The notes beneath the pieces are model-generated. The model ran no database searches. It was not told the DNA's origin and saw only the letters and a program-made list of their open reading frames with translations. This document shows, piece by piece, positions 1 through 10,768 of a DNA stretch of 10,768 bases (position 1 is its first letter; each line of letters starts with the position of its first letter). The position numbers and the translations under genes are program-made. Where the stretch lies: contig MHGR01000012.1 in the NCBI GenBank assembly GCA_001805655.1, positions 1-10,768 of the forward strand, given 5' to 3'. Source of the stretch: Omnitrophica WOR_2 bacterium RIFCSPHIGHO2_02_FULL_52_10. GTDB taxonomy: Bacteria; Omnitrophota; Gorgyraeia; Zapsychrales; Zapsychraceae.

Positions 1-3000
1 AACATTCCCAATCTTAACGGAATTACACGGGTCATGGTCGTTGAGCCCGCTCAACTGCCGGACGGTAGCCGCCCCGCGGTCGGGCAGAATAATAACAATG
101 AGAAAGTGCTGTACATCGCCCCGCAGCACATTTCCGGTCAGGGGGCGGTTCGGTTTGATCCGGTGATATTGGGTGCGGCGGAATCTGACCGCCTGGCGGC
201 AATTGTCGCCGTGCGGCGACAATTGGCTCTCCAGGACATGAACCGCCGGGAACTCGCCGCGGCCGTGCGGGAAGCGGCCGGTTCGCCGGTGATTGAGAAG
301 GATTTGATAGATAGGATTCAGGGGCAGGGGGATATGGGAAGGAGATACGCTCCGGCCGCTATTCAAGTGGCTGCTCAAGAAGCCATAAAGATTGCAGAAA
401 GCAGCCGGCCTGGGGCGGCATTTACGGAGCATGAAATTAGAACTATGCTGGTTGAGCAGAAGAGAATTGATCAACCGTTAGCAGGCGTTGCAGCTCGGAC
501 GTACCAGGAGATGGCATTTGCTGGGCGCCGTGGGGTGGAGGCCGGTTCGCCGGCGGTCAGCTCTCAGCGGCGGTTTGCCAGTTCGCCATCCATAACGGAA
601 CAACGCACGGAATTAGAGAATAAGATCAGGACGAGCGTCGGCCGTTTTGGGAGTTTCGAGCCGGTTAAGATCCTCGGGGCGACGCAAGAAGTTATGAAAA
701 AGATGGATCACGGGACCCCCGGGGGAGATATCGGTGCCGCGCGCAGGAATATGGTGAATGACCTGGTTTCGCGCGGATATGATTGGACATTGGCGGTAAA
801 CACGGTTTCCATCGCCGGGATTTTGGATATCGCAAACAATCATGCCGGCCGCCTGCAGCGCGGGGCGGTGGAAGTCGACAAATATTTGAATCAGCATATT
901 GATACGGCCGATGCGCACGGGAAAATCGGGCCGGCGGTAGGGAGGGCGATGAATTTAGCCGTTGAAATGCCGGAACGGTTCACAACACCGGCCGAAATAT
1001 TTGAAACATTGCGCTCCGAGGGTTATGACCCGAACATTGCCCAGAGGGCAGCGCAGGCCATGGCTCCGGGGCTTTTAGGCGCACCGATCGTAGGGATCAA
1101 TGCCGTGGGCAAGACTGAAATGCTGTTCGCCCGCGGCGCGGACAGGATCGAAAGGCGCTTGTTGAGCGAAATGAATGCCGCCGAGGCCCTTGAGGCTCTG
1201 GGTGATCTTGACAACGTGATGTTCGCGGGGAACTCGCCGGCCGAGATCAAGAAAGTCCAGAATGAAGTTATTGAAGTGCGCATCAAAAATGGCGTCGCGG
1301 AGAACGCGGCCAACAAAGTGACCATGTTGGCCGTCGGGAACCTGCCGGAACGCCCAATGCTCAACAACGCCAAAGATGTGGCGTGGAAGATATTCGGTAA
1401 TAATAGCAATGTCAAGCCGTTTCCGACACGCCATGCCGGCGCGCAGGGCAATGCCGTGATGCCGATCATGGTCGCTGAAAAAGAGGTCTATGATAATGAT
1501 CGTAATGATGCAATGGCTGGTAAACACGCCGAACATTATTTTATGAGAGACGACGGGGTTAAATTCGACCGTTGGCGGGTTGTTGACGGGAAGCCCCATC
1601 AAGAAACCATCACCGCCGATGAATTGTTGAACAGGAAGTTCATGCCTGGGTTCGCCGTGATCGCCCACGCGGGGCAGAAGATGAGCCATTCGGCTGCCGG
1701 TCAATTCTTTGAATCCGACAGATTAATTTTCCACAAGGGGATTCCGGTCAATCTAGCCGAGGCCACGGCCGCCACCCGGGAGCCGGCCCATCGGGCCAAG
1801 TTATTCGAAGCGTTCAACGAGGTTGATAAACTGCTAAGCAATGTGGGTTTTGGAACACGCCGCAGCCGCGGTGCCGGAATAAGCGGCGGGAAGATCGAGA
1901 CAAAGGTGTTCGACGCGTTCTATGTCGACAGTTCGATGGAGGACGCGGGCGCGCGCATTTTCGAAATCTCCGGCAAAGCGGGAGGGTCAAAGCAAATTGT
2001 TCTCGCGCTGAGCCCGCAAGTTGCCGAGCGGGCCGATCCGGTTGAGATCGCCAACATCATTACAGGTACGTTAGGTAGTGATAGAAAGATGAGGGATGAA
2101 GGAGGGTTCTTTACCAATATCAAAGAGGCATCGAGCGAAAATGACCAGAAGGGTGGGCTTATTAGTGAGATAGTTAGAAAGATTGTTCGGAATGGGGCGG
2201 AAATCAGTTCTAACATGTTTGAGGGTAAACAAACCAGAGAAATGACGGATGAAAGGGTTTATCGCATGGATCCCCAAGAGGGCGCGCAATTTAATGAAAG
2301 GGTGTTCCCCACAAGCGTGTCCATGGGAGGTTTGATAACACTAGCAGAGAATACCGCGGAGGCATACACGAAAATCGAGCAAGCCAAAGTGGAGATCGAC
2401 AGAGGCGATGTCGATTTCGGCAAACTGTTTGCCAAAGTATCGCAACTTGAACCACGGGAGTTGGCAAGGCTGCCCGAAGTAAGCGGGGTATCAGCGGTGG
2501 GAAGAGATGGGCTATTAACAGAACCTACGAGATATCAAGAGGCCACAAGAGCGCCACCGGCGCCTGATTTAAGCCGTCAGCCGTCCGCTCCTGCTGTTCA
2601 GCCTCAACAACTCCTCTCCACCGCGTCGCCGATTACGCCTATATTATTGGAACAGAACTTTACAGCGCCAAACACTGCCATTCTACTGATAACACCGATG
2701 CCCACCGCTCCGGTAATGCCCATGGCTTCCGCTTCTTCACCGTCCGAAATTGTCATTCCCGCGAAAGTCCTTCGGCAGGCTCAGGATTCCTCTCGACCGA
2801 AGTATCCCGAGCGAAGTCGAGGGACGGGAATCCATACTGGCGATAGTTTCAGTCTGGATCCCCGCTTAAAGCATGCGGGGAGGACAGAAATTGGCAGGGG
2901 GTCGAGCCCGCAGCTGGCAGTCGTCAGTCCTCAGCCGACGGCCTCGCCCATTGTGAGGGTAGATATCAATAAGGATATTGCTCTGGCAGGAGGCGCGGGG

Positions 3001-6000
3001 GAAGTCGGGAGCAGCCCGCTTACTTTGACGGGTGGTTCTCTTGATGCTGCTTATCGGAATGCTTATTCGTATACCACAGCAGGGCAGATAACAGGGCCAC
3101 AACGACATACAGCATTATTATTACCGCCTCAGTCATTTTCTTCATCTCCTCTCTCTGGAAATATGATAACAGATATTACAAGGATTGCAAGCAGCGCCCC
3201 TATACCGGAAATAGTCACAAAAAGCGGGTATTTAACAAAGAATCCGGATGCGAACGATGTCACGCAAAGCAACCGAAACAGGTCAAACAGCCCCTTGCCG
3301 ATGAGCACTCGCCTTCCCGTGGACAAAAACGCCTTCAGTTCTCCCATAGACATTTCTCCTTTGGTTGATCATGATACGGCTGAAATTGCTTTGAGGGAAA
3401 GCGAGGGGTATCGGAGGGATGGGGATGTTACTAACGCGCTTACATTAACACAGACGCCTTCGTTTGTCAATCCGGTTGGTGGGGGGTCGAGTCCGCAGCT
3501 GTCAGTCGACAGCCCTCAGCGGATCGGCAATTTCACCCCGTCCAGCAGTCCCGCGAGATATGAAGTAAGGAAGATGAGCGCAGAAGATTTTAACAAGCTC
3601 AGTGAAAAATTTGGGCTAGGTAGGGAGTTTATCGCCCAACATGTGTCGAAGTGGCCGATAGATATCGCCGCTCGTGTTTCTGATATCATCAAAGTCAACC
3701 CCGTACATCGCATTGAATATCTAAATGGTATTGGTGAGCACGCTGATAAATTTAGCGAAATCGTGTTCGTGGATGATATGCCTGAATGGGCCGGGCCAGC
3801 ATCGGATATTTCACCCCATATAGCGGCGGATCAAAATATTATTTATGTCCATGCTCAAAAGGCCAAACCGGCTGAATTGAATCAGTATTTGGCTAAAATC
3901 AGAGCGAAGCAACAAAAAATCATCGAGAGGAACGGAGAAGCAATCGAGAGAGTCCACAGGACGATGGAGCGCCAGCGGCGGAGTAATCAGCGAATGCCGG
4001 ACTACACGCAGTTCGTCGCGGGCCGTAATATTCCCAGCTTAACCAGGAGGCAAGGCGAAGCTTTGAGTGTTGCGGAGGCGTATAACAACGTCGGCTTCGT
4101 GTGGTCGTTAAGGCAGGAGAAATTAGATGCCGGGCGCAGCAATGTCAATATTCTCCGCGGAAAAATATCCGCCGCAACACCAGATGTTGCGGCAGGTTCA
4201 TCTCCTATTCTTGATCAGGCGCGCCGCCAGGCGATACCGTTGGACATCGAATCTGCGCAGGCGCCAACGACTATTTCCGTCCCGCGCGAAACCAGCTCGC
4301 CCGCTGAACTCCGCGAGCCTGTATCATTGTCGATATCTGAAGGGGAAGATATTAAGGTGTCTAGGGGGACGTGGTATTACTTAGATAATAAAGGGGATGG
4401 CTTACGTTACTACTTAGATTTAGAGAATGAGAGAGGGGGAAGACAAATCTTAGGCGCCTTAAAGGAAGGTTATAGAGTAAAGCCTCCTAAAGAAGGTATG
4501 CGATATTTTGTGAGCAACCTTTTGGCCTCACCGAATGTACCGGATGAGGTCAAGGAAAAAATTAAAAAGGCCGTTTCGCCATCCGGGAGATTCAAGAGAT
4601 ACTTATCCAACTCAGGCTTGCCGGCATTGACATTGATAGGGACCTTGTCGGCCGGGGGCGTGTATACAGATCTTAACTTGTTTGATGGCGCGCTCACAAG
4701 GGCGGCTGTATTCACTGCTTCCGGCGGGTATTCGGGAGTGATGACGCAGGGTGAGATGCAGAAGATGAAAGAAAGAGAAGGCACCTATCAAAGGGCTTCG
4801 GATATCGATCGGATACAAACACAATTGAAGGCGGTACAGGAAAGGTATTGGACTGGTAACGAGACCGCCCCCAACATTTTCCGGATATTCCTGAGATTGG
4901 ACAAGAACACACTTCCCGAATCGCCGTATAAGCCGAAATCCATTTCAAATGACAAAGGCATGAAATATTACAGTATAAAAGACTTGAGCCGTGTCCGGGC
5001 ATTGGATGAAAAGCGGTCAGATGGGCAATATTTTTGGTCGACGGAACTGTTGCAGTCTTTATCGTCCATGAAAGATGGCGAGATCATTAAAAGCGGATAT
5101 AAAAGAAGCGCAAATTATACTTCCATCTATGGAAATTTAGATGATGGAAAATTAGAAACAAGGGTCCGTCTCGGGAATTATCTGGAATCGTTCGGAAAGG
5201 ATAAAGAAGGGGTTTATCTCAGCATTTATGATGTTTATGATTTCGGAAAATCGAGCCGGGACGGGGTGCAAGTGCAACCTTTGGGCCGGGCGCTAAACAG
5301 CCTGGGAGCGCCTTTCGTTATATATGACAGGCACTATATAGATACAAAAGAAATAGCAAAAGAATTAAAAAATCGCAGGTCGTCCTCACCGATCCAACAT
5401 GACCGGTATGACTTGGCAAAATCCGCACGGCAGGCAGAGCGGTCAGTCTCTATCTCCACGGTTGGTGAAGGGTTGCGTCTCCAAGAAGCGTATGGGAATG
5501 TCGGGCCGTTTAAGCTTCAGGCCCCAAGGAAGACTGGTATTGATCAGTTAACCCATCCTGAAATCTCCAGGGCCACCCCAATAGTCGCATCCCCGGCCCT
5601 TGTGCCAGAGCGTACGGTCAAGCTGGACATTAAACCTGCGCAGGCGCGGGAAATAGCCCAAGCAGCCGCGCGGCCGCTGGTGCCGTCTTCCTCCTCGCCG
5701 GTCGTTAGGCCGTCAGTTATCAGATCTCAGCAACGCTCGGCAACTTCTTCTCCGATAAAATTCGATCTTTCTACCAGGCGGTTCCTTCTGGATGCTGTCC
5801 AAAGGGCTGAAAATGGCACTTTGGGTGAATTAAAAAGAGAGGAACTAGAATCTTACGGGCTTAATGTAAGAATGTTGAATGATCTATTGAGAGAAAAGGG
5901 GCGGGAAGTAGTCCAAAAGAAATTAAGAAATGTTAATTTCCAAATTCTCACGGATGAAGGAGGGAATGTCCGCGTTTGGCATTCTCCAAGCCTTCCTGGC

Positions 6001-9000
6001 CTTGTGATCAAGGCTGAAAGGGTGCCAGGGCACTTTGTCAAAAATGTATTGCCCGGTTATGAAACAGCCAAAAAAAGTTTGGGAGGGCTTTTTGCCTTCA
6101 TGATCCTTGAGGATATGGATGTCAAGATAAATGGCGAAGTGCAGCATTTTGATCATCTGATTATTCAGCAATATGCAGAACCTGTTGCAAAAGTCATTGA
6201 TCGGATCAAGCAGAGCGGCGCAAAACAAGAAGTCATTGATCAGGAGATCGGGAAAATACAGGAGGCCTTTCTCAATTTATCAGAAGCGATCTGGGAACGA
6301 GGCATTATCGATAATGATTTTATTAATTGGCGAGACAACCACGGCATTCTTCCTAACGGAAAAATGGTATCGTTTGATGTTGATCAATATAGCGAAGAGC
6401 CTTCTCCGGGATTCGACTGGGTGGGCGCACACATGCAAGAAGAAGATATTTGGATGTTGGACCGCATTACTACTAAAAATTTTGAGGAGTTCAAGAGGTT
6501 AGGGACTGAAAAAGGCGTGAAGCGGTATCGAGTCGCGGATATGTTTGCAGATGAAATAAAGGAAGCCTTCCAAGAAGCCATTATGAATAATTTGCCGCAG
6601 AACTCCAGCCCTGTGTCTGATAAAGCTATTTCTCGGGTCAAAATGCCGGATTCCTCCTCCTCTCCCGCCCGCATCGAACAGCGTGATTTAGCACCAGCCG
6701 CAGCCGCGCGGCCGCTTGTTCCGTCTTCCTCTTCGCCGGTTAATGTCCGGGCTGTTGATCCGCCAGCGGGCAGTTCTTGGCCAAATTTAAATACAATAAT
6801 TGACAAATTTAAAATAGTTAGTAAATTTTTCGGGCCGCGGAACAACCAGAAGAAGGCGTCTTTAAGTAAGCCGCCTGCCTCCGCTAACATTGACCTGCCT
6901 TATGAACGCAATCGGCGAATAATGGGAGCAAATGGATTTTGGGAGCGTTTCCGCTGGAAGGGGGGAAGCGAGGCGATGCTCTTTGAACATCCGGACCGGC
7001 CTAATCAGATTTTCAAAATTTTTAATGGGACACACGAAAAGGAGCATCTGGAAAAGCTTGTAGAGCTAAATCAACGGCTCAATGAAAAAGGTCTTAAGGT
7101 GCTCCCGATAACATTGGCCCAAACGCCCATAGGCTTTGGGGTAAAAAGAGAACATGTTCATGGGAGAGGTCTCAACGAGGTCCTTGGAGAGCTCAACCCC
7201 AAGGGCACAGTGATGTTAGACGACGATGGGGATGTGGCAAGATACGATATTCGAGGCTTCCCTGTAGATGAAAACACCAGGCTGCGCCAGAAAGAGGCAT
7301 TAAAACTTGAGGCAGTAGCCACTAAGATGTTGAATGACATCGATCAGATAACCAAAGAAATCACCGGAATGGGGTTAGCTGACCGTAGAGTAAAGGGGTT
7401 ATCTTCTGAAGAGATGGATTTTGATAATTTCATTGTGAAGCCCGATGGAGAAATCGTTAATATTGATCCGATCAGCATGAGTTTGTTAATTAAGAGCATG
7501 AAGGGATCCTCGCTGGCCCTTCCGGCGGCAAGGGGGGCTGAGCCTACTGTTCCGGCAGCCGCAAATCAAATCAGCCGGCGTGGCAATGTCCTAACTGGCC
7601 AGCCATTACCGGTTGCCCGCCCGGCTGTGTCCGCCGCAACATCCGGTGTTGCGGCACGGGATACAGCGGTAGGTTCATCTCCTGTCTTTGAACCGACGCG
7701 CAACACGGTAAAGTTGGACATCGAGCCGGCGCAGGTGCGGGAAATGGTCCAAGTATCCGAGCGGCCGCTTGTGCCGGCCTCTTCATCTCCGATCAGCCGG
7801 GAGCTCAGCAACCGACTTGTCCAAATAGGTTTTGTGCCGGAAGCGCGCGTGGAGAGCAGGCTGTATGGCCGAGGGACGATCAAGGTCATCGACGAAATGC
7901 CGGGGGTCGGTGGTATATCGGTCCCCACCATTACGATCCGTTTTGAAGATCATAATCTGACCGTGCCGTATAACGCGCAAGATGTCATTGATGGGAAGAT
8001 CCGCGACATTGCAATTATTAAACCGGCCTCTTCTTCCTTGATTGATATTCGAATGGTTGAGTCGTCAGCGGTCAGCTCTCAGCAGCGCCAGGCAACCTCC
8101 TCGCCGGTCAATGTCCGACCCGTTGAGCCGTCAGCTGAAAGCCGTCAGCTTTCAGTTGGCTCATCTCCGACAGACAATAAGCTCCGGGATCAACTTACTA
8201 CCCTGACACAACGGCCGATAATAGCACCAAGGATTGAATCGGCGGTGCGGGCAATGGTCAAGGTTGAACCTGTTAAGATTTCGTCACCTATTAAAATACC
8301 ATTTAACGATTCATTCCACAGATCGAAAATACGCCAAGCGGTAGATGCTTACGCTCGCGACCTAAATCGCGCCTATCAGTCGTCAAGAACGGCATTGCCG
8401 CCGGTTGTTTCGGACACGCGATATTTTAAGGACATGGGGGGTGCAGGCAAAGATGTTTATGGTAAAGCGGTTATCGGTGAATTTGAAGCCCCGGTCACGT
8501 TCCGCGCATTATTGACTAGGCATAATCTTCCGGAAAACACGCGGAGCGTCGTCGTATTGAATCCGGATATTTATGCCATTACGAGAGATCTGACAGATGC
8601 GCAAAGATTGGATATCGTTGGCACGACCGCATTCCACGAAACACTTCATGCTACAGTAGGAACAAAGGAAAAGACTGTTCAACTTGTTGAAGCGCTGAGA
8701 TCAGACCCCAGCTTGTATCGAGATATCCATAAAGCCATGCAGCCTCTGGGATATAACATCGATCAGCCAAAGCGTGATGCTGATCTTATTCATGAATTTG
8801 TGGCTATTGCGAGAACACAAAAAGAATTCGGCCGCATTCCTCACGGTTCTCTAGGTACTGAGAAGCTCGTTGCTCCCGAATTGGCAAGATTATACGACGA
8901 CAGCCGGGCAGAGCCCATAAGAGCCATTATGCCGAAGATCAACGTGAAGCACCTCGATCGCGCCTCCTCGCCGGTCACGTTGAGCATTTCCGAAGCGCCC

Positions 9001-10768
9001 AAGGTGGATATTTCGCGGTCCGAGATGTCCCGTCCCGCCATCGCTTCCTCGCCGATCGACTTAACAAAAGTATCATCTACTTTGAGTGAAATTAATGGCA
9101 AGATTGTGAACTCCGGAGTTGACGCAAGCGGCAAGATCCAAGACATCAAATTAAGTGAAGCGGACAATGACCTTTTAATACGTATCCATAGGCTTAGCCA
9201 GGATATTATAGATAAACGTTCAGAATATGGCTTGCGGAAACAATTGGATTCGTTCCGCGCATTTAAGCCTGCTGAGAATAGACGGCAGGATGTTGAGCGG
9301 ATTATTGCCGCTTTGTCCGATGCTTTGTCGGATGATTTTGCGCCGGTCCAGTCAAAGCCAGTTCAAATGAACTTAATCAATAAGGACGGTGACCAAGCAA
9401 TAATCAAAGAACGGGATACGGAGTTCATTGGTTTTGAGCCTGCCCCAGCGCGCGAACAGGCTCAAGTTCAACTGGATCTATTTAAAACAGAATCTTCCAG
9501 CCCCGTAGACCGGCAGACCCGAAGTATGTTTACGCAAATGCCCGAAAGACAGCTGGTTAGCAGCCCCGCAAAGCCCGAAATGCCGCAATTTCAGCCGGGC
9601 AGGACTGAAATGCCCCGCATTGAGACCTCCAGCCCCGTTATACACAAAGCCCGAGGTGAAAATCACATTACGGCTATTTTGCGAGCCTGGAATTCCGTCC
9701 CGAGGCGGATGCGTTTGGATCTGAAGGAACGGAATATATCCAATGCGCTTAAAAAGGGCGGGAAGGCCCAATTGTTCTATGCGGGAGAGGGAGATATGCC
9801 GCAAGCGGTCTTGTTGGCTATTCAACCAAAACCAAAAGAAACTTTCTTCAATTTGTGGGCCGTTGAGACAGACCCGGACGTTAAAGGAAAAGGTTATGGG
9901 CGGGATTTGGTCAGGGAGTTTGTCCGAACCTACGGAGAAAAGTACTCGATCGGGACCATGCTTAATTATCAGGGGGACAGGTCCGGAGCTCAAAAAGAAT
10001 GGGAAAACTTTTTCGAAGAACAAGGATTTCGTCCTCTTGGCGGAGAAGGATATTTCTTTAGAAAACCACAGCCGGTTTCCAGCCCCGTGGAGCAGTTGAG
10101 CACGGTGGAGGAAAATGTGCAGCGGACGGCAGTCGTCTCCAGCCCGGTTGCGGCAACGGATATATCAAAGTCCATGGGCGCAATGAGCAGGGTCAAAGAA
10201 AACATGAACAGGATGTTTGACAGGGTCAATGAACAGCTCAGGAAGTGGAGGGGTCAAAATGTTCAGTCTAACGCTGGTCGGGCAGAAGTCATGGCAGCGC
10301 TGGGTACCGGCAGCAAGGCGACAGAAGCCGTTTACTCAAAGAGCCTGTTCAGCAAGTTCATTGACGGGGCCAAAGCGCTCTTCGGTATATTTAGTCCCGA
10401 GGATAAGGACCGCGTGGTTAATCCTGAAACACCCGGTATTGCGGACAAGGCGGTGCCATTAGTAGTACCCCGTGCCCGTGCCGCAACACCGGATGTTACG
10501 ACTACACCGGGTCCGGGTGTTCTGGAGCCGTTTGCTCCAGCGCCTATTGTCCCAGTGCCGGCGCCGGCCTCTTCTCCTATATTAGTGCCAGTGTCCCTGC
10601 CCATGCTTCTTGTGCAATTAGAGAATGGACTATCGCTTGCCTTCACTAATAATAATTTACGGAATGATCCATTTGCGGGTAAATCCTATGCCAAGGCAGG
10701 GGCCGCTGCTACAAACGCGATTCCGGGAGAAAGCCCATTTGCCCCGTCTGCCACTAAACAACAATTCC
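1..10768 (+). CDS. Giant modular multidomain protein, internal fragment (both ends outside window)
   Basis: Frame 1 is open across the entire window without a stop, giving 3589 complete codons; neither the start nor the stop codon is present. Modules in order: an unknown region (residues 1-830), a linker (about 835-1183), unknown domains (1185-1375 and 1435-1793), two kinase-fold-like domains (1919-2199 and 2296-2500), a small beta-rich domain (2598-2675), a metallopeptidase-like domain (2764-2988), a helical region (3019-3120), a GNAT acetyltransferase (3213-3359) and a Pro/Ala-rich tail. From base 2734 onward, modules are separated by low-complexity linkers carrying Ser-Ser-Pro, usually followed by Val or Ile. 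The synonymous codons of these motifs vary, which argues for genuine translation of this frame. Overall function is unknown. A multi-effector or surface protein, or a polyprotein cut at linkers, are guesses. Size and linker style resemble giant proteins of Omnitrophota. Confidence 0.93.
200..225. repeat. Perfect 11-bp inverted repeat, hairpin in coding sequence
   Basis: CAATTGTCGCC (200-210) and GGCGACAATTG (215-225) are exact reverse complements separated by the 4-base loop GTGC. The hairpin is translated inside a helix (AAIVAVRRQLAL). No T-run follows, so it is not an intrinsic terminator. It may be another palindromic element absorbed into the reading frame, or an RNA structure acting on translation or decay. 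Confidence 0.8.
553..568 (+). repeat. AVSSQ linker repeat, copy 1 (with 8068-8083)
   Basis: The 16-base string GCGGTCAGCTCTCAGC is identical here and at 8068-8083. At protein level the linkers read AVSSQRRFASSP here, AVSSQQRQATSSP at 8068-8106 and SVIRSQQRSATSSP at 5713-5754. This gives a three-member family in which the SSQ/RSQQ element sits just before an SSP motif. Confidence 0.7.
589..2490 (+). other. Large globular region of unknown function
   Basis: Residues 197-830 form the longest stretch in the window free of SSP linkers, so this may be one large domain or a tight set of domains. The first half is helical, with paired helical units around TPAEIFETLRSEGYDPNIAQ (979-1038) and SPAEIKKVQNEVIEVRIKNG (1237-1296). 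The second half is alpha/beta. It contains a His-rich stretch (GKHAEHYFMRDDG, 1519-1557) and the strand-like PGFAVIAHAG (1645-1674). A segment around 1738-2025 has the rough order of an ACT fold: strand, helix LFEAFNEVDKLLSNVGF, then VFDAFYVDSS, which recalls the VxDxFYV strand of ACT domains. That last comparison is weak and I do not assign it. Confidence 0.4.
2752..2886. repeat. Composite palindromic repeat element translated in frame
   Basis: The outer element begins GTCATTCCCGCGAAAG (2752-2767), closes with CGGGAATCC (2825-2833), and ends with a second hairpin in which CCCCGC (2860-2865) pairs with GCGGGG (2875-2880). This is the layout of the widespread bacterial repeat with a GTCATTCCCGCG end, normally found between genes. 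Nested inside it at 2768-2824 is a second common repeat, with CTCGAC (2792-2797) facing GTCGAG (2816-2821). Its translation gives the tell-tale VLRQAQDSS and YPERSRG strings seen when such intergenic repeats are read as protein. So a repeat has inserted within a repeat, and both are translated by the giant gene without breaking the frame. Confidence 0.85.
2897..2935 (+). repeat. 39-bp linker repeat, copy 1
   Basis: This unit matches 3482-3520 at 35 of 39 bases without gaps. Both copies encode G-S-S-P-Q-L followed by a second S-P-Q (SSPQLAVVSPQ here, SSPQLSVDSPQ in copy 2). The core belongs to a CAGCT..CAG..CAG type of short palindromic repeat also visible in the 8131-8157 linker. Confidence 0.8.
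3020..3136 (-). CDS. Small single-pass membrane protein, 38 aa, antisense within the giant gene
   Basis: Read on the minus strand from ATG at 3136 to TAA at 3020-3022. A Shine-Dalgarno AGGAG (3146-3150) lies nine bases upstream; the in-frame ATG at 3145 directly abuts that site and is less likely to be used. The protein has a short N-terminus (MTEA), one hydrophobic segment at residues 5-22 (VIIMLYVVVALLSALLWY) and a polar, His/Lys/Gln-rich tail (NKHSDKQHQENHPSK). The start overlaps the end of the 72-aa gene by eight bases, the usual geometry for translational coupling. I recognise no family. It could be an active overlapping gene or the fossil of a mini-operon captured in reverse orientation as linker DNA. 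Confidence 0.5.
   Translation of the reverse strand: MTEAVIIMLYVVVALLSALLWYTNKHSDKQHQENHPSK
3129..3347 (-). CDS. Small two-pass membrane protein, 72 aa, antisense within the giant gene
   Basis: The minus-strand ORF runs from ATG at 3347 to TGA at 3129-3131. I chose 3347 over the in-frame ATG at 3353 because AAAGGAG (AGGAG at 3356-3360) lies eight bases from the former and only two from the latter. The product looks like a genuine small membrane protein: a cationic N-terminus (residues 1-19, with two Arg and two Lys), hydrophobic segments at about 20-38 and 41-64 (ending AILVISVIIF), then an acidic tail (ERGDEEND). Its 3' end overlaps the start of the 38-aa ORF, suggesting a two-gene operon. 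No family is recognised. The sense frame through the same bases is featureless Ser/Pro/Thr linker, so selection could plausibly have acted on this strand. Confidence 0.55.
   Translation of the reverse strand: MGELKAFLSTGRRVLIGKGLFDLFRLLCVTSFASGFFVKYPLFVTISGIGALLAILVISVIIFPERGDEEND
3146..3150 (-). promoter_or_regulatory. Ribosome binding site of the 38-aa antisense ORF
   Basis: AGGAG on the minus strand, nine bases before ATG 3136. On the plus strand these bases are part of the codons for a Ser-Ser-Pro motif (TCATCTCCT), so the match could in principle be a by-product of that motif. Confidence 0.45.
3356..3360 (-). promoter_or_regulatory. Ribosome binding site of the 72-aa antisense ORF
   Basis: AGGAG, extended to AAAGGAG on the minus strand, lies eight bases before ATG 3347 and fixes that start. 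A possible -10 (TATCAT, minus strand, plus-strand 3371-3376) lies just upstream. I see no convincing -35 at the right distance, so a promoter is not called. Confidence 0.5.
3482..3520 (+). repeat. 39-bp linker repeat, copy 2, with internal hairpin
   Basis: Second copy of the 2897-2935 unit (four mismatches). Inside it GCTGTC (3498-3503) and GACAGC (3508-3513) form a 6-bp stem with a 4-base loop. This supports descent from a short palindromic repeat. Confidence 0.8.
3553..4125 (+). other. Unrecognised alpha/beta plus coiled-coil domain
   Basis: Residues 1185-1375, bounded by SSPA (3544) and the GE-L-EAY-NVG motif. The first two thirds look globular, with predicted helices (FNKLSEKFGLGREFIAQHV), strand-like SEIVFVDDMPEW (3757-3792) and NIIYVHAQKA (3835-3864). 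A highly charged helix follows (3877-3990; AKIRAKQQKIIERNGEAIER) that could form a coiled coil. I see no catalytic motif and know no family match. It could be a binding module. Confidence 0.4.
4054..4095 (+). repeat. GE-L-EAY-NVG peptide repeat, copy 1
   Basis: The 14-residue string GEALSVAEAYNNVG matches GEGLRLQEAYGNVG at 5464-5505 at nine positions. Each copy ends a module and is followed after about 25 residues by an IS-x-ATP string and a Pro/Ser-rich linker. The pair therefore looks like a duplicated domain-end unit. Confidence 0.65.
4171..4193 (+). repeat. 23-bp palindromic element, copy 1
   Basis: The stem GCCGCAACA (4171-4179) and TGTTGCGGC (4185-4193) is perfect over nine base pairs, with loop CCAGA. 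Related copies lie at 7633-7655 (opposite orientation) and 10480-10502. Here the palindrome is translated as AATPDVAA and is followed directly by a Gly-Ser-Ser-Pro-Ile linker. Confidence 0.85.
4303..5380 (+). other. Unrecognised domain pair ending in a Tyr-rich YDVYDF/IYDR module
   Basis: Residues 1435-1793, between SSPA (4294) and SSPI (5383). The opening is beta-rich and Tyr-rich (TWYYLD, LRYYLDLENE). A mildly hydrophobic stretch follows (GLPALTLIGTLSAGGVY, 4618-4668), then a charged helical segment. The last part (5101-5340) carries the order Y.S.Y, LGNYLESF, VYLSIYDVYDFG, then GAPFVIYDRHYID. The aromatic-Asp pattern looks like a conserved fold core rather than linker, but I cannot name a family. 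Membrane insertion of the hydrophobic stretch is doubtful because Gly and Ser are frequent in it. Confidence 0.45.
5464..5505 (+). repeat. GE-L-EAY-NVG peptide repeat, copy 2
   Basis: GEGLRLQEAYGNVG is the second copy of the 4054-4095 motif. It precedes EISRATPIVASPAL, which parallels KISAATPDVAAGSSP after copy 1. Confidence 0.65.
5614..5703 (+). repeat. TVKLDI linker module, copy 1
   Basis: A 30-codon unit that aligns without gaps to 7705-7794, with 21 of 30 residues identical. It starts TVKLDIKPAQ and ends RPLVPSSSSPV. The terminal 41 bases (5662-5702) also match 6700-6740 with three mismatches. A shortened form (PLDIESAQAP) occurs at 4240-4269. The unit is always placed immediately before a new domain. 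Confidence 0.8.
5755..6597 (+). other. Protein-kinase-fold-like domain 1
   Basis: Residues 1919-2199, between SSPI (5746) and SSPV (6604). The landmark order fits a divergent protein kinase or aminoglycoside-phosphotransferase-like fold. LVIKAE carries a candidate ATP-anchoring Lys (6010-6012). A strand-hinge region DHLIIQQYAEPV follows (6151-6186), then helix AFLNLSEAIWERG. IIDNDFIN aligns with HRDLKPEN, with Asp at 6310-6312 and Asn five residues on (6325-6327). FDVD supplies the DFG-like metal Asp (6376-6378). There is no classic glycine-rich loop that I can point to. If active it would transfer phosphate from ATP; the target is unknown. It is one of two adjacent kinase-like modules. Confidence 0.55.
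6700..6740 (+). repeat. 41-bp linker repeat matching 5662-5702
   Basis: This encodes AAARPLVPSSSSPV and matches the end of the TVKLDI module at 5662-5702 in 38 of 41 bases. High DNA identity in a linker suggests recent duplication or gene conversion within the gene. Confidence 0.8.
6800..6827 (+). promoter_or_regulatory. Promoter-like AT-rich patch inside the ORF
   Basis: TTGACA (6800-6805) is followed after 16 bases by TAAATT (6822-6827, four of six matches to TATAAT). The patch (about 6782-6830) is strikingly AT-rich for this window and also contains a direct repeat of CAAATTTAAA. The first downstream in-frame ATG at 6920 has no convincing ribosome binding site, so a separate transcript for the second kinase-like module is only a possibility. 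Confidence 0.2.
6886..7500 (+). other. Protein-kinase-fold-like domain 2, catalytic Asp replaced by Glu
   Basis: Residues 2296-2500. KGGSEAMLF resembles a nucleotide-loop strand and is followed by QIFKIF with a candidate Lys (7015-7017). VKREHVHGRGL (7144-7176) looks like a kinase hinge. A helix (EAVATKMLNDIDQITKEITGMG) leads to EEMDFDNFIVKPDGEIVNIDP. There the Asn (7426-7428) and the DFG-like Asp of NIDP (7465-7467) match the kinase pattern, but the residue five before the Asn, normally the catalytic Asp, is Glu (7411-7413). The domain may be a pseudokinase or a variant kinase; a nearby Asp (7417) could substitute if the loop is shifted. It resembles domain 1 in layout more than in sequence. 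Confidence 0.55.
7501..7791 (+). other. Interdomain linker built from two repeat families
   Basis: Ala/Pro/Ser-rich residues 2501-2597 with no visible fold. They contain the opposite-orientation 23-bp palindrome (7633-7655), GSSPV (7675-7683 is the SSP) and the second TVKLDI module (7705-7794). The GGTTCATCTCCT string at 7672-7683 also follows the palindrome at 4195-4206, so palindrome plus SSP travelled or were duplicated together. Confidence 0.75.
7633..7655 (-). repeat. 23-bp palindromic element, copy 2, inverted
   Basis: GCCGCAACA (7633-7641), loop TCCGG, TGTTGCGGC (7647-7655). The loop is the reverse complement of the CCGGA loop of copy 3, so this copy lies in the opposite orientation. 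It is translated in frame as AATSGVAA. Confidence 0.85.
7705..7794 (+). repeat. TVKLDI linker module, copy 2
   Basis: Second copy of the 30-codon unit at 5614-5703, starting TVKLDIEPAQ and ending RPLVPASSSPI, with 21 of 30 residues shared. It directly precedes the small beta-rich domain. Confidence 0.8.
7792..8025 (+). other. Small beta-rich domain of unknown function
   Basis: Residues 2598-2675, about 78 residues between SSPI (7783) and the AVSSQ linker. A helix (SRELSNRLVQIGFV) is followed by alternating strands (GTIKVIDEMPG, PTITIRFEDHNLTVPY, IRDIAIIKP). The size suits a small binding domain; no family is recognised. Confidence 0.4.
8068..8083 (+). repeat. AVSSQ linker repeat, copy 2
   Basis: Identical over 16 bases to 553-568, although the copies are 7.5 kb apart in the gene. 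It is followed by ATSSPV at 8092-8109. Confidence 0.7.
8135..8155. repeat. Hairpin-forming linker repeat
   Basis: CTGAAAGC (8135-8142) and GCTTTCAG (8148-8155) are exact reverse complements with a 5-base loop. It is translated as AESRQLS just before GSSPT. It resembles the CAGCT/TCAG type palindrome in the 2897 and 3482 repeats. Confidence 0.7.
8290..8964 (+). other. Zincin-like metallopeptidase domain (HETLH)
   Basis: Residues 2764-2988, between SSPI (8281) and SSPV (8965). The segment TTAFHETLHATVG contains the zinc-binding HExxH motif as HETLH (8635-8649), preceded by a strand-like SVVVLNPDIYAI as in many zincins. About 48 residues later LIHEFVAIA offers Glu (8794-8796) as a third zinc ligand, the arrangement of gluzincin-type peptidases and of related domains in polyvalent proteins. 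If active it hydrolyses peptide bonds, with the HETLH Glu as general base. An upstream YFKDMGGAGKDVYGKAVIG segment (8425-8481) probably forms the N-terminal part of the fold. The family is not named; a short motif alone could mislead, but the strand-HExxH-helix-E context supports it. Confidence 0.55.
8974..9495 (+). other. Linker plus helical region
   Basis: VDISRSEMSRPAIASSPIDL (9004-9063) is a linker of the common type. Residues 3019-3120 (9055-9360) then form a mostly helical stretch with regularly spaced charged and aliphatic residues (LLIRIHRLSQDIIDKRSEYG, RRQDVERIIAALSDAL) that may pack as a small helical bundle. The end (9361-9495) has a short basic/acidic segment and then a Pro/Ala/Gln linker (PAPAREQAQVQLDL). 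No catalytic motif is seen. Confidence 0.4.
9496..9636 (+). other. SSP-rich linker before the acetyltransferase domain
   Basis: Three Ser-Ser-Pro triplets at 9496, 9559 and 9628 delimit two short Gln/Met/Pro-rich spacers of about 20 residues (DRQTRSMFTQMPERQLV, and KPEMPQFQPGRTEMPRIET). The close spacing shows that SSP recurs as a unit in its own right and not only once per domain. Confidence 0.7.
9637..10077 (+). other. GNAT-family N-acetyltransferase domain
   Basis: Residues 3213-3359, about 147 residues, the usual size for a GNAT domain. GNAT enzymes move an acetyl group from acetyl-CoA to an amine. The order is helix (ITAILRAWNSVPRRM), strand (AQLFYAGE), strand (AVLLAIQP), then the CoA-binding motif A: strand NLWAVETDPDVKGKGYG followed by helix RDLVREFVRTYG. 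KGKGYG (9883-9900) is the expected [RQ]xxGxG/A pyrophosphate loop with Lys at the first position. The C-terminal part has helix AQKEWENFFEEQGFRPLG and strand GYFFRKP, matching the final strand after the bulge. The substrate is unknown. It is flanked by SSPV motifs on both sides (9628 and 10078), so it is a discrete module. Confidence 0.75.
10087..10400 (+). other. Helical module flanked by SSPV
   Basis: A short spacer with SSPV at 10078 and 10138 leads into an amphipathic helix (MGAMSRVKENMNRMFDRVNE, 10174-10233). A helical stretch with small residues follows (RAEVMAALGTGSKATEAVYS), then the more hydrophobic KFIDGAKALFGIF (10351-10389). It could be an oligomerisation or membrane-associating segment. 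No family is recognised. Confidence 0.4.
10401..10768 (+). other. Pro/Ala/Val-rich linker continuing out of the window
   Basis: A low-complexity segment with palindrome copy 3 (10480-10502), a Pro-rich run (PFAPAPIVPVPAPASSPI, 10531-10584) and SSPI (SSP at 10570). A mixed segment follows (LPMLLVQLENGLSLAFTNNN, then ESPFAPSATKQQF). The reading frame is still open at the last base. No domain is visible in the remaining sequence. Confidence 0.6.
10480..10502 (+). repeat. 23-bp palindromic element, copy 3, degenerate
   Basis: GCCGCAACA (10480-10488), loop CCGGA, TGTTACGAC (10494-10502). It is in the same orientation as copy 1, with two changes in the right arm, and is translated as AATPDVTT. Its first 14 bases are the exact reverse complement of the right half of copy 2. 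Confidence 0.75.

Follow-up and report, generated by a model that had tools for sequence, protein, structure and literature searches.

Predicted mobile pairs of small membrane-protein genes docked antisense within giant-gene linkers of Omnitrophota

Mobile DNA that inserts into genes while the host frame is kept open is familiar from the palindromic elements of Rickettsia and from inteins, and among the type I toxins LdrD, Fst and TisB are peptides of about 30 amino acids (aa) having one helix and a basic tail. Short protein genes lying opposite a longer gene have likewise been described in E. coli, as for ano (PMC5960689) and laoB (PMC5810103; see also the review PMC7457138), and giant open reading frames (ORFs) of more than 20 kb are, according to PMC10066038, common in Omnitrophota, peptides having been mapped to one of them and their function being unclear. 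The subject of the present work is a stretch of 10,768 nucleotides from Omnitrophica WOR_2 bacterium RIFCSPHIGHO2_02_FULL_52_10 (contig MHGR01000012.1; “the window” means this whole stretch), in which two small predicted membrane-protein genes, here called gene 1 and gene 2, lie on the minus strand within a single very long frame of the plus strand. Our reading, to which we would assign a probability of roughly 0.8, is that such pairs are mobile, self-promoted small-gene cassettes, perhaps addiction-like, that have docked backwards in giant-gene linkers and would still be coding there.

Rickettsia palindromic elements and inteins differ from this arrangement in adding sense-coded residues to their hosts, whereas the cassette brings its own predicted promoter and genes on the other strand. 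The product of gene 2 shares the form of the type I toxins, but its gene sits behind a second protein gene. There is also a likeness to type II toxin-antitoxin systems, in that two small adjoining or overlapping genes with their own promoter occur in several copies per genome, with a patchy spread and a shared antisense niche; however, both products here are predicted small membrane proteins, and no sequence relation was found. The examples of ano and laoB are single cases, whereas here a family of paired genes is met again and again, in dozens of host frames that are unrelated to one another, and the pair seems to travel as one unit. The host frames resemble the giant ORFs described in PMC10066038, and the window, with a frame of 3589 aa open at both ends, qualifies as holding a very long frame, but the published class exceeds 20 kb and this contig is 10.8 kb long. 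In the main text of that paper, so far as it is accessible, the words “antisense” and “overlapping” do not occur, and searches of the open-access literature, preprints not covered, listed no paper describing genes on the strand opposite the giant genes of Omnitrophota. Antisense overlap as such is of a known kind, while a mobile, promoter-bearing family living mostly antisense inside other genes would, as far as is known, be new. Antisense overlaps in bacteria are usually argued singly; here 74 of 110 copies are nested in this way, and the free copies form a built-in control group, so that dual coding can be measured and not merely asserted.

The giant frame occupies positions 1..10767 of the plus strand, as frame 1, without a stop. 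On the minus strand, just as an earlier note made from the bare sequence had described them, gene 1 runs from an ATG at 3347 to a stop at 3129 (72 aa; an alternative in-frame ATG upstream at 3353 would give 74 aa) and gene 2 from an ATG at 3136 to a stop at 3020 (38 aa, or 41 aa from an alternative in-frame ATG at 3145), the two overlapping by eight bases (3129-3136). Each is preceded on the same strand by an AGGAG, at 3356..3360 for gene 1 (8 nt before its ATG) and at 3146..3150 for gene 2 (9 nt), again as described. The membrane-protein character proposed for both products was also borne out, with two hydrophobic segments predicted for that of gene 1 and one, together with a basic, His-containing tail, for that of gene 2; AlphaFold2 models the former as a helical hairpin (helices 12-36 and 44-64, mean predicted local distance difference test score 86). 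The assignment of gene 1 thus draws on its ORF, its relatives, its match to the family model and this hairpin model, and that of gene 2 on its ORF and its partners across the family.

A single-sequence search with the gene 1 product against 5.8 billion proteins gave one match (P0001, a 75-aa metagenome protein, 61% identity, E 5.5e-12), and a search of 55 genomes, namely its own and 54 relatives, gave four genes (E 1.4e-7 to 1.1e-5), all of which directly adjoin a downstream short one-helix ORF, as in the window. Since the gene 1 product has real relatives, the ORFs of the window are more than chance; chance ORFs are ruled out by these homologues together with the profile-free detector described below. 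Stand-alone tandem homologues, which the earlier note had proposed to seek, do exist outside giant frames, and the outcome that the note had listed as refuting, namely homologues nowhere beyond this locus, did not arise. A family profile (A2) of 15 rows, that of the window included, matched 105 places in 48 of 384 genomes of the phylum (E ≤ 1e-3), as well as 58 protein clusters, with Omnitrophota, Nitrospirota and Desantisbacteria among the names of their sources; 17 of the 18 titled contigs carrying the family are from Omnitrophota or Omnitrophica, and one is labelled Patescibacteria. The copy census covers the window and 84 regions, taking in the 105 profile places and two further loci and counting copies of at least 15 bits, while two further places in genome G218 and the weak matches of early searches stand outside it. 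It comprises 110 distinct copies of gene 1, 102 of them with a one-helix gene 2 partner by a criterion that, unlike the stricter profile-free detector, comes with no background rate. An alignment built from 26 partners displays one hydrophobic segment and a basic, His-containing tail, the cassette as a whole measuring about 320-390 bp, and the window copy conforms to this pattern in having directly downstream a short one-helix gene with a ribosome site and a basic, His-containing tail. The predicted pair belongs, in other words, to an unnamed tandem gene family of Candidatus Omnitrophota. The best sequence match in PDB was to TMEM175, at E 0.61, nothing there being significant, and Foldseek gave no match at E ≤ 0.001 (two lay above E 8); no viral relatives appeared in two scans of viral contigs with close-range queries, no tRNA genes in 14 loci, and no known RNA in Rfam, either at the gathering threshold for the window and five loci or at E ≤ 5 for positions 2700-3700 of the window.

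In the 74 nested copies the whole pair lies inside an opposite-strand open frame of at least 400 aa, and in 68 of them of at least 1000 aa, some host frames spanning the entire 20 kb fetched, while same-strand open frames of another phase contain a copy in 0 of 110 cases. The opposite frames of the 36 free copies are all of 207 aa or less, so that the two classes separate, and the gene 2 partner is present in both (70 of 74 nested, 32 of 36 free). For comparison, 20 regions picked arbitrarily from genomes that carry nested copies have 9.1% of their bases in frames of at least 1000 aa, a figure that is an underestimate because several of the contigs are short. A number of tests were carried out on a partial set of 84 copies, 59 of them nested; these comprise the tests of the tripeptide SSP, ribosome sites, dual coding, the tree, the detector, flanks, promoters, terminators, direct repeats and antisense promoters. 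The profile-free detector looks for a hydrophobic ORF followed by an ATG with a ribosome site and a hydrophobic ORF of 24-48 aa. Applied to 583 kb of loci with giant frames (which had been picked by the family profile), it gave 56 pairs antisense to the giants and 0 on the same strand as them, the figure for codon-shuffled controls being 0.0. The phase relative to the host is as in the window in 63 of the 74 nested copies, the silent positions of gene 1 facing those of the giant gene. On the gene-1 tree the nested or free state is clustered, requiring 11 changes where 500 shuffles gave a mean of 21.8 and a minimum of 15, which argues that lineages diversified while nested.

As to the hosts themselves, four giant stretches of 5000 aa carry carbamoyltransferase, radical SAM, phosphomannomutase, OMP decarboxylase, NDK, GH130, GH77, peptidase M28, GNAT and other domains, and in the scanned parts of loci L089, L090 and L114 the pairs overlap, by coordinates, none of the enzyme domains. 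The giant protein of the window has as its sole Pfam match a weak one to GNAT (E 0.063, below the curated cut-off). As an observation in its own right, the single stop-free frames of L097, L089, L090 and L114 hold polyprotein-like chains of ordinary metabolic enzyme domains, PGM/PMM and SPase II among them.

That the cassettes move is suggested by their surroundings. Where nested pairs with gene 1 products 45-72% identical were compared, the 250 aa of giant protein on each side showed no similarity in 23 of 23 cases (at E ≤ 1e-3), one of which sets L114 against L129, whose giant frames are related elsewhere; in 11 of 11 comparisons of DNA the main match was confined to the span from 48 nt before gene 1 to 31 nt after gene 2; and a single giant frame in L113 holds two copies, separated by 8154 bp, that share 91% identity along 474 bp but nothing outside that span. 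Direct repeats link both 600-bp flanks in 19 of 52 nested cassettes, as against 3 of 52 controls, and the cassette of the window is itself bracketed by a 48-nt direct repeat (2891..2938 and 3476..3523, 85% identical). The same linker contains dispersed repeats (2769..2890) that recur at eight further places in the genome, the longest open frame over the repeat being 196 aa or less at six of the seven places checked. The shared units, of about 330 bp, are filled by the two genes. As marks of a transposon or miniature inverted-repeat transposable element one would look for a transposase within the unit or for inverted repeats at its ends; neither was found, the check for inverted repeats covering the window copy (none of at least 14 nt between 2500 and 3900).

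Among the alternatives, the one that survives best, as possible though doubtful, holds that the giant genes are fusions of neighbouring genes, between which the antisense cassettes already lay. The separate ordinary enzyme domains of the giant frames would be natural products of such fusions, the free copies are indeed intergenic (with both neighbours pointing the opposite way in L080, L120, L124 and L136), and at six of seven places elsewhere the repeats of the window linker lie outside long frames. However, fused neighbours would hardly explain why related cassettes share no flanks in any of the 23 comparisons, nor the 91% duplicate within one and the same giant frame of L113. The case of L114 is also awkward for fusion: there the cassette splits two repeated domain pieces that are continuous in the relative L129, and the locus looks like an insertion accompanied by a long direct duplication.

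A near promoter, by which is meant a sigma-70 match of at least 9/12 within 30 nt of gene 1, was found in 57 of 83 copies (40 of 59 nested, 17 of 24 free), compared with 6.0% of 2319 random same-strand ATGs. In the 40 nested cases the spacer is of 17 nt in 35, and the distance from the end of the -10 element to the start is 7 nt in 19 and 10 nt in 11, positions that suggest leaderless gene-1 messages. An AGGAG or GGAGG is rare before gene 1 (9 of 59 nested copies); before gene 2, 41 of the 56 nested pairs have one, compared with 1.7% of 6770 background same-strand ATGs. The earlier note had cautioned that a Ser-Pro coded as TCTCCT automatically places AGGAGA on the other strand, which is a fair caution for the window taken alone, but one that is met by this enrichment at the level of the family. 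Of the 27 copies without a near promoter, the window included, 19 have a match of at least 9/12 between 31 and 200 nt upstream, where 136 of 780 random positions do, and 8 have an exact TTGACA with a 17-nt spacer further upstream. The predicted near promoter is thus a common feature of the family and not a defining one. In the leaders of L119, L127 and L135, which have distant promoters, a predicted hairpin pairs with the gene 1 ribosome site, again with no match in Rfam. Nested copies gave no clear terminator signal after gene 2, their mean fold energy there being -9.47 where shuffled sequences had -8.9 (n = 56); the corresponding figures for free copies are -13.35 and -8.77 (n = 22).

Whether both strands are coding can be approached by shuffling synonymous codons. 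In nested copies of the usual phase (phase 1), shuffling gene 1 (n = 51) would be expected to give 18.8 stops in the giant frame, and shuffling gene 2 (n = 45) 51.3, where 0 were seen in either case, while the converse shuffle of the giant gene (n = 45) would be expected to give 72.6 stops in the small frames, where again 0 were seen; these zeros are partly built in, as a nested copy is defined by an open giant frame and complete ORFs. The informative part of the test is therefore the contrast with the free copies, whose predicted opposite frames form a separate group by length and which avoid no stops at all: 35 were seen for gene 1 against 37.1 expected (n = 25), and 13 for gene 2 against 13.4 (n = 7). 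A second approach uses codon positions. In the usual phase of gene 2 the silent position of the giant gene faces position 2 of gene 2, and its second position faces position 3; position 2 of gene 2 would accordingly be the most variable if the giant protein were the conserved product. With the caveats that the pairs are not independent, that alignment was on the small proteins and that for any given pair divergence may have preceded insertion, differences per site in 36 nested nearest-neighbour pairs were 0.460, 0.340 and 0.640 at positions 1, 2 and 3, position 3 exceeding position 2 in 36 of 36 pairs and position 1 exceeding it in 29 of 36, with 2 ties. Values for 13 free pairs were similar (0.458, 0.332 and 0.630), and the 8 nested pairs of at least 50% identity gave 0.304, 0.200 and 0.533. 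Because position 2 is the least variable, selection would seem to see the small proteins, the giant strand mainly having to stay open. The small frames of the nested class thus appear to be under protein-level selection while overlapping, and the same DNA seems to be maintained as readable on its two strands simultaneously. The earlier note had offered two readings, of functional overlapping genes or of a segment captured backwards; at the level of the family each now has support, in protein-like evolution and in a discrete antisense cassette in unrelated linkers respectively.

Several points weigh against the reading of mobile, still-coding cassettes, and the first of them concern the window copy itself. 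Its near promoter fails the threshold given above, with 8/12 near the start. Upstream, on the minus strand at 3442..3470, there is a match of 9/12 at 94 nt (TTGACA at 3470-3465, a 17-nt spacer and TAATGT at 3447-3442, followed by a leader of some 90 nt), which must be treated as a candidate only, because 136 of 780 random positions (17%) score as high. Its giant frame stays open in every gene 1 shuffle and in 16% of gene 2 shuffles, so that this copy taken alone says little about dual coding. More generally, besides the partly built-in zeros of the stop test, nine of the 15 seed rows of the family profile are nested copies, so that the sampling is not neutral; neither a significant match to the family nor membership of a known toxin-antitoxin family was found in Pfam, PHROGs, NCBIfam or PADLOC; many neighbours of free copies are ordinary genes; and an addiction function is argued solely from neighbourhood and form.

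The points that concern the window might be taken to mean that its cassette is a fossil, foreign DNA that was captured in reverse, has ceased to make protein and serves only as linker. We consider this unlikely, somewhat more so than fusion. It would suit the lack of a start-proximal promoter and the weakness of the upstream candidate, as well as the nature of the linker, which holds dispersed repeats, is bracketed by direct repeats, and has no orthologue that could be found in the 54 other genomes searched. In those genomes the right-hand flanking domain of the giant gene has no match (0 of 54) and the left-hand one a single match of 25%, in genome G002; nor was an orthologous giant gene, with and without the cassette, found among them. 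A fossil would, however, not be expected to retain both ORFs, their starts, the AGGAG sites and the gene 2 tail intact, and its relatives do not look like fossils either: 70 of 74 nested ones keep both genes, a search that reads through stops flagged internal stops at only 4 of 105 profile places, and the upstream matches in 19 of the 27 copies lacking a near promoter exceed the random rate. The window copy does depart from the commonest form, and it may be weakly expressed or silent; that it may nonetheless be active is something that we infer.

It could also be proposed that the cassette acts as an antisense RNA, its promoter tuning the giant gene by transcriptional interference and the proteins being incidental. 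Such a role would call for an antisense-strand promoter, which 40 of 59 nested copies have, but the codon-position pattern and the gene 2 ribosome sites indicate selection on proteins, and free copies keep both the promoter (17 of 24) and the partner (32 of 36), so that we regard this as improbable. Least tenable of all is the notion that only the small genes are real and that the giant frame is an artefact, left free of stops as their shadow, which could appeal to the near absence of Pfam matches in the window's giant protein but is contradicted by frames stop-free for up to 20 kb, by the four 5000-aa stretches rich in enzyme domains, by the avoidance of stops in nested copies and not in free ones, and by the peptides published for a giant ORF of the phylum (PMC10066038).

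If the reading of docked, still-coding cassettes is right, the cassettes would have been inserted backwards into giant-gene linkers, an orientation that would be tolerated since it leaves the giant frame open, the silent positions of gene 1 in the usual phase falling on those of the giant gene. The minus strand would be transcribed, and both small proteins would be made and form a membrane pair. Less certainly, gene 1 may control a small, membrane-active gene 2, as an addiction or membrane-conflict module. Losing the giant gene would be punished by modules of this kind, unless they simply ride on it. This suggestion is made because DUF433, DUF2283 and PIN genes share the niche (families that we take to be linked to toxin-antitoxin systems) and because some free copies lie near toxin-antitoxin genes, their neighbours including ParE, PemK, MazE, UPF0175, AbiEii and similar genes. 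Judged from form, from the many diverging copies and from the company of genes, an addiction-type function remains tentative, with the odds leaning against it; instead, the pair may have a role in the membrane that is connected with the giant protein, or may be purely selfish.

The niche itself can be surveyed apart from the family. Opposite 39 giant frames, 463 kb in all, 25 promoters of at least 11/12 were counted, 18 of them before known pairs; the strand that encodes the giants has 4, and codon-shuffled controls gave 4.0. Among 57 promoter-bearing antisense ORFs listed, 37 others were compared with Pfam, giving DUF433 (2), DUF2283 (2), aspartyl protease (2) and PIN_3 (1), with weaker matches to DUF1664 (3) and MCPsignal (1). 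DUF433 was then set against ribosomal protein L35 in the same 55 genomes, in a test whose places had not been chosen for nesting: 11 of 24 DUF433 places lie antisense in frames of at least 400 aa, the sole DUF433 gene found in the window's genome among them, against 0 of 30 loci for L35 (30 examined of 45 places). There may be a hidden second gene layer, in which the giant genes of Omnitrophota are docking platforms for promoter-bearing mobile cassettes (membrane pairs and modules of toxin-antitoxin type) that spread between linkers, are kept functional together with the giant frame and possibly act as addiction modules preventing its loss; we see this broader picture as evenly balanced. The family also offers a route to the unsolved nature and persistence of these giant genes, since their linkers hold apparent mobile cassettes and genes of toxin-antitoxin type. 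Gene callers that bar large overlaps would be expected to drop such antisense genes.

Some further observations concern other occupants of the niche and the giant proteins. A second small family, with the motif SQFRxFGE, has three places in the window's genome, each with an 11/12 promoter and with opposite frames of 1989, 442 and 267 aa; it is coiled-coil-like, antisense and mostly inside giant frames, with strong sigma-70 promoters, and its antisense sites are at L090:549-755, L114:7658-7951, L100:13018-13353, L107:2250-2609 and L112:5624-5887 and in L165, L166, L167 and L168. Giant frames also contain, antisense at L082:16430-17088 and L097:2122-2723, a small ORF with a gene for a gag-type aspartyl protease behind it. 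Finally, the tripeptide SSP occurs 29 times in the giant protein of the window, where 1.5 occurrences would be expected; L083, L090, L097 and L107 likewise show clear enrichment, and most of the 39 giant frames do not.

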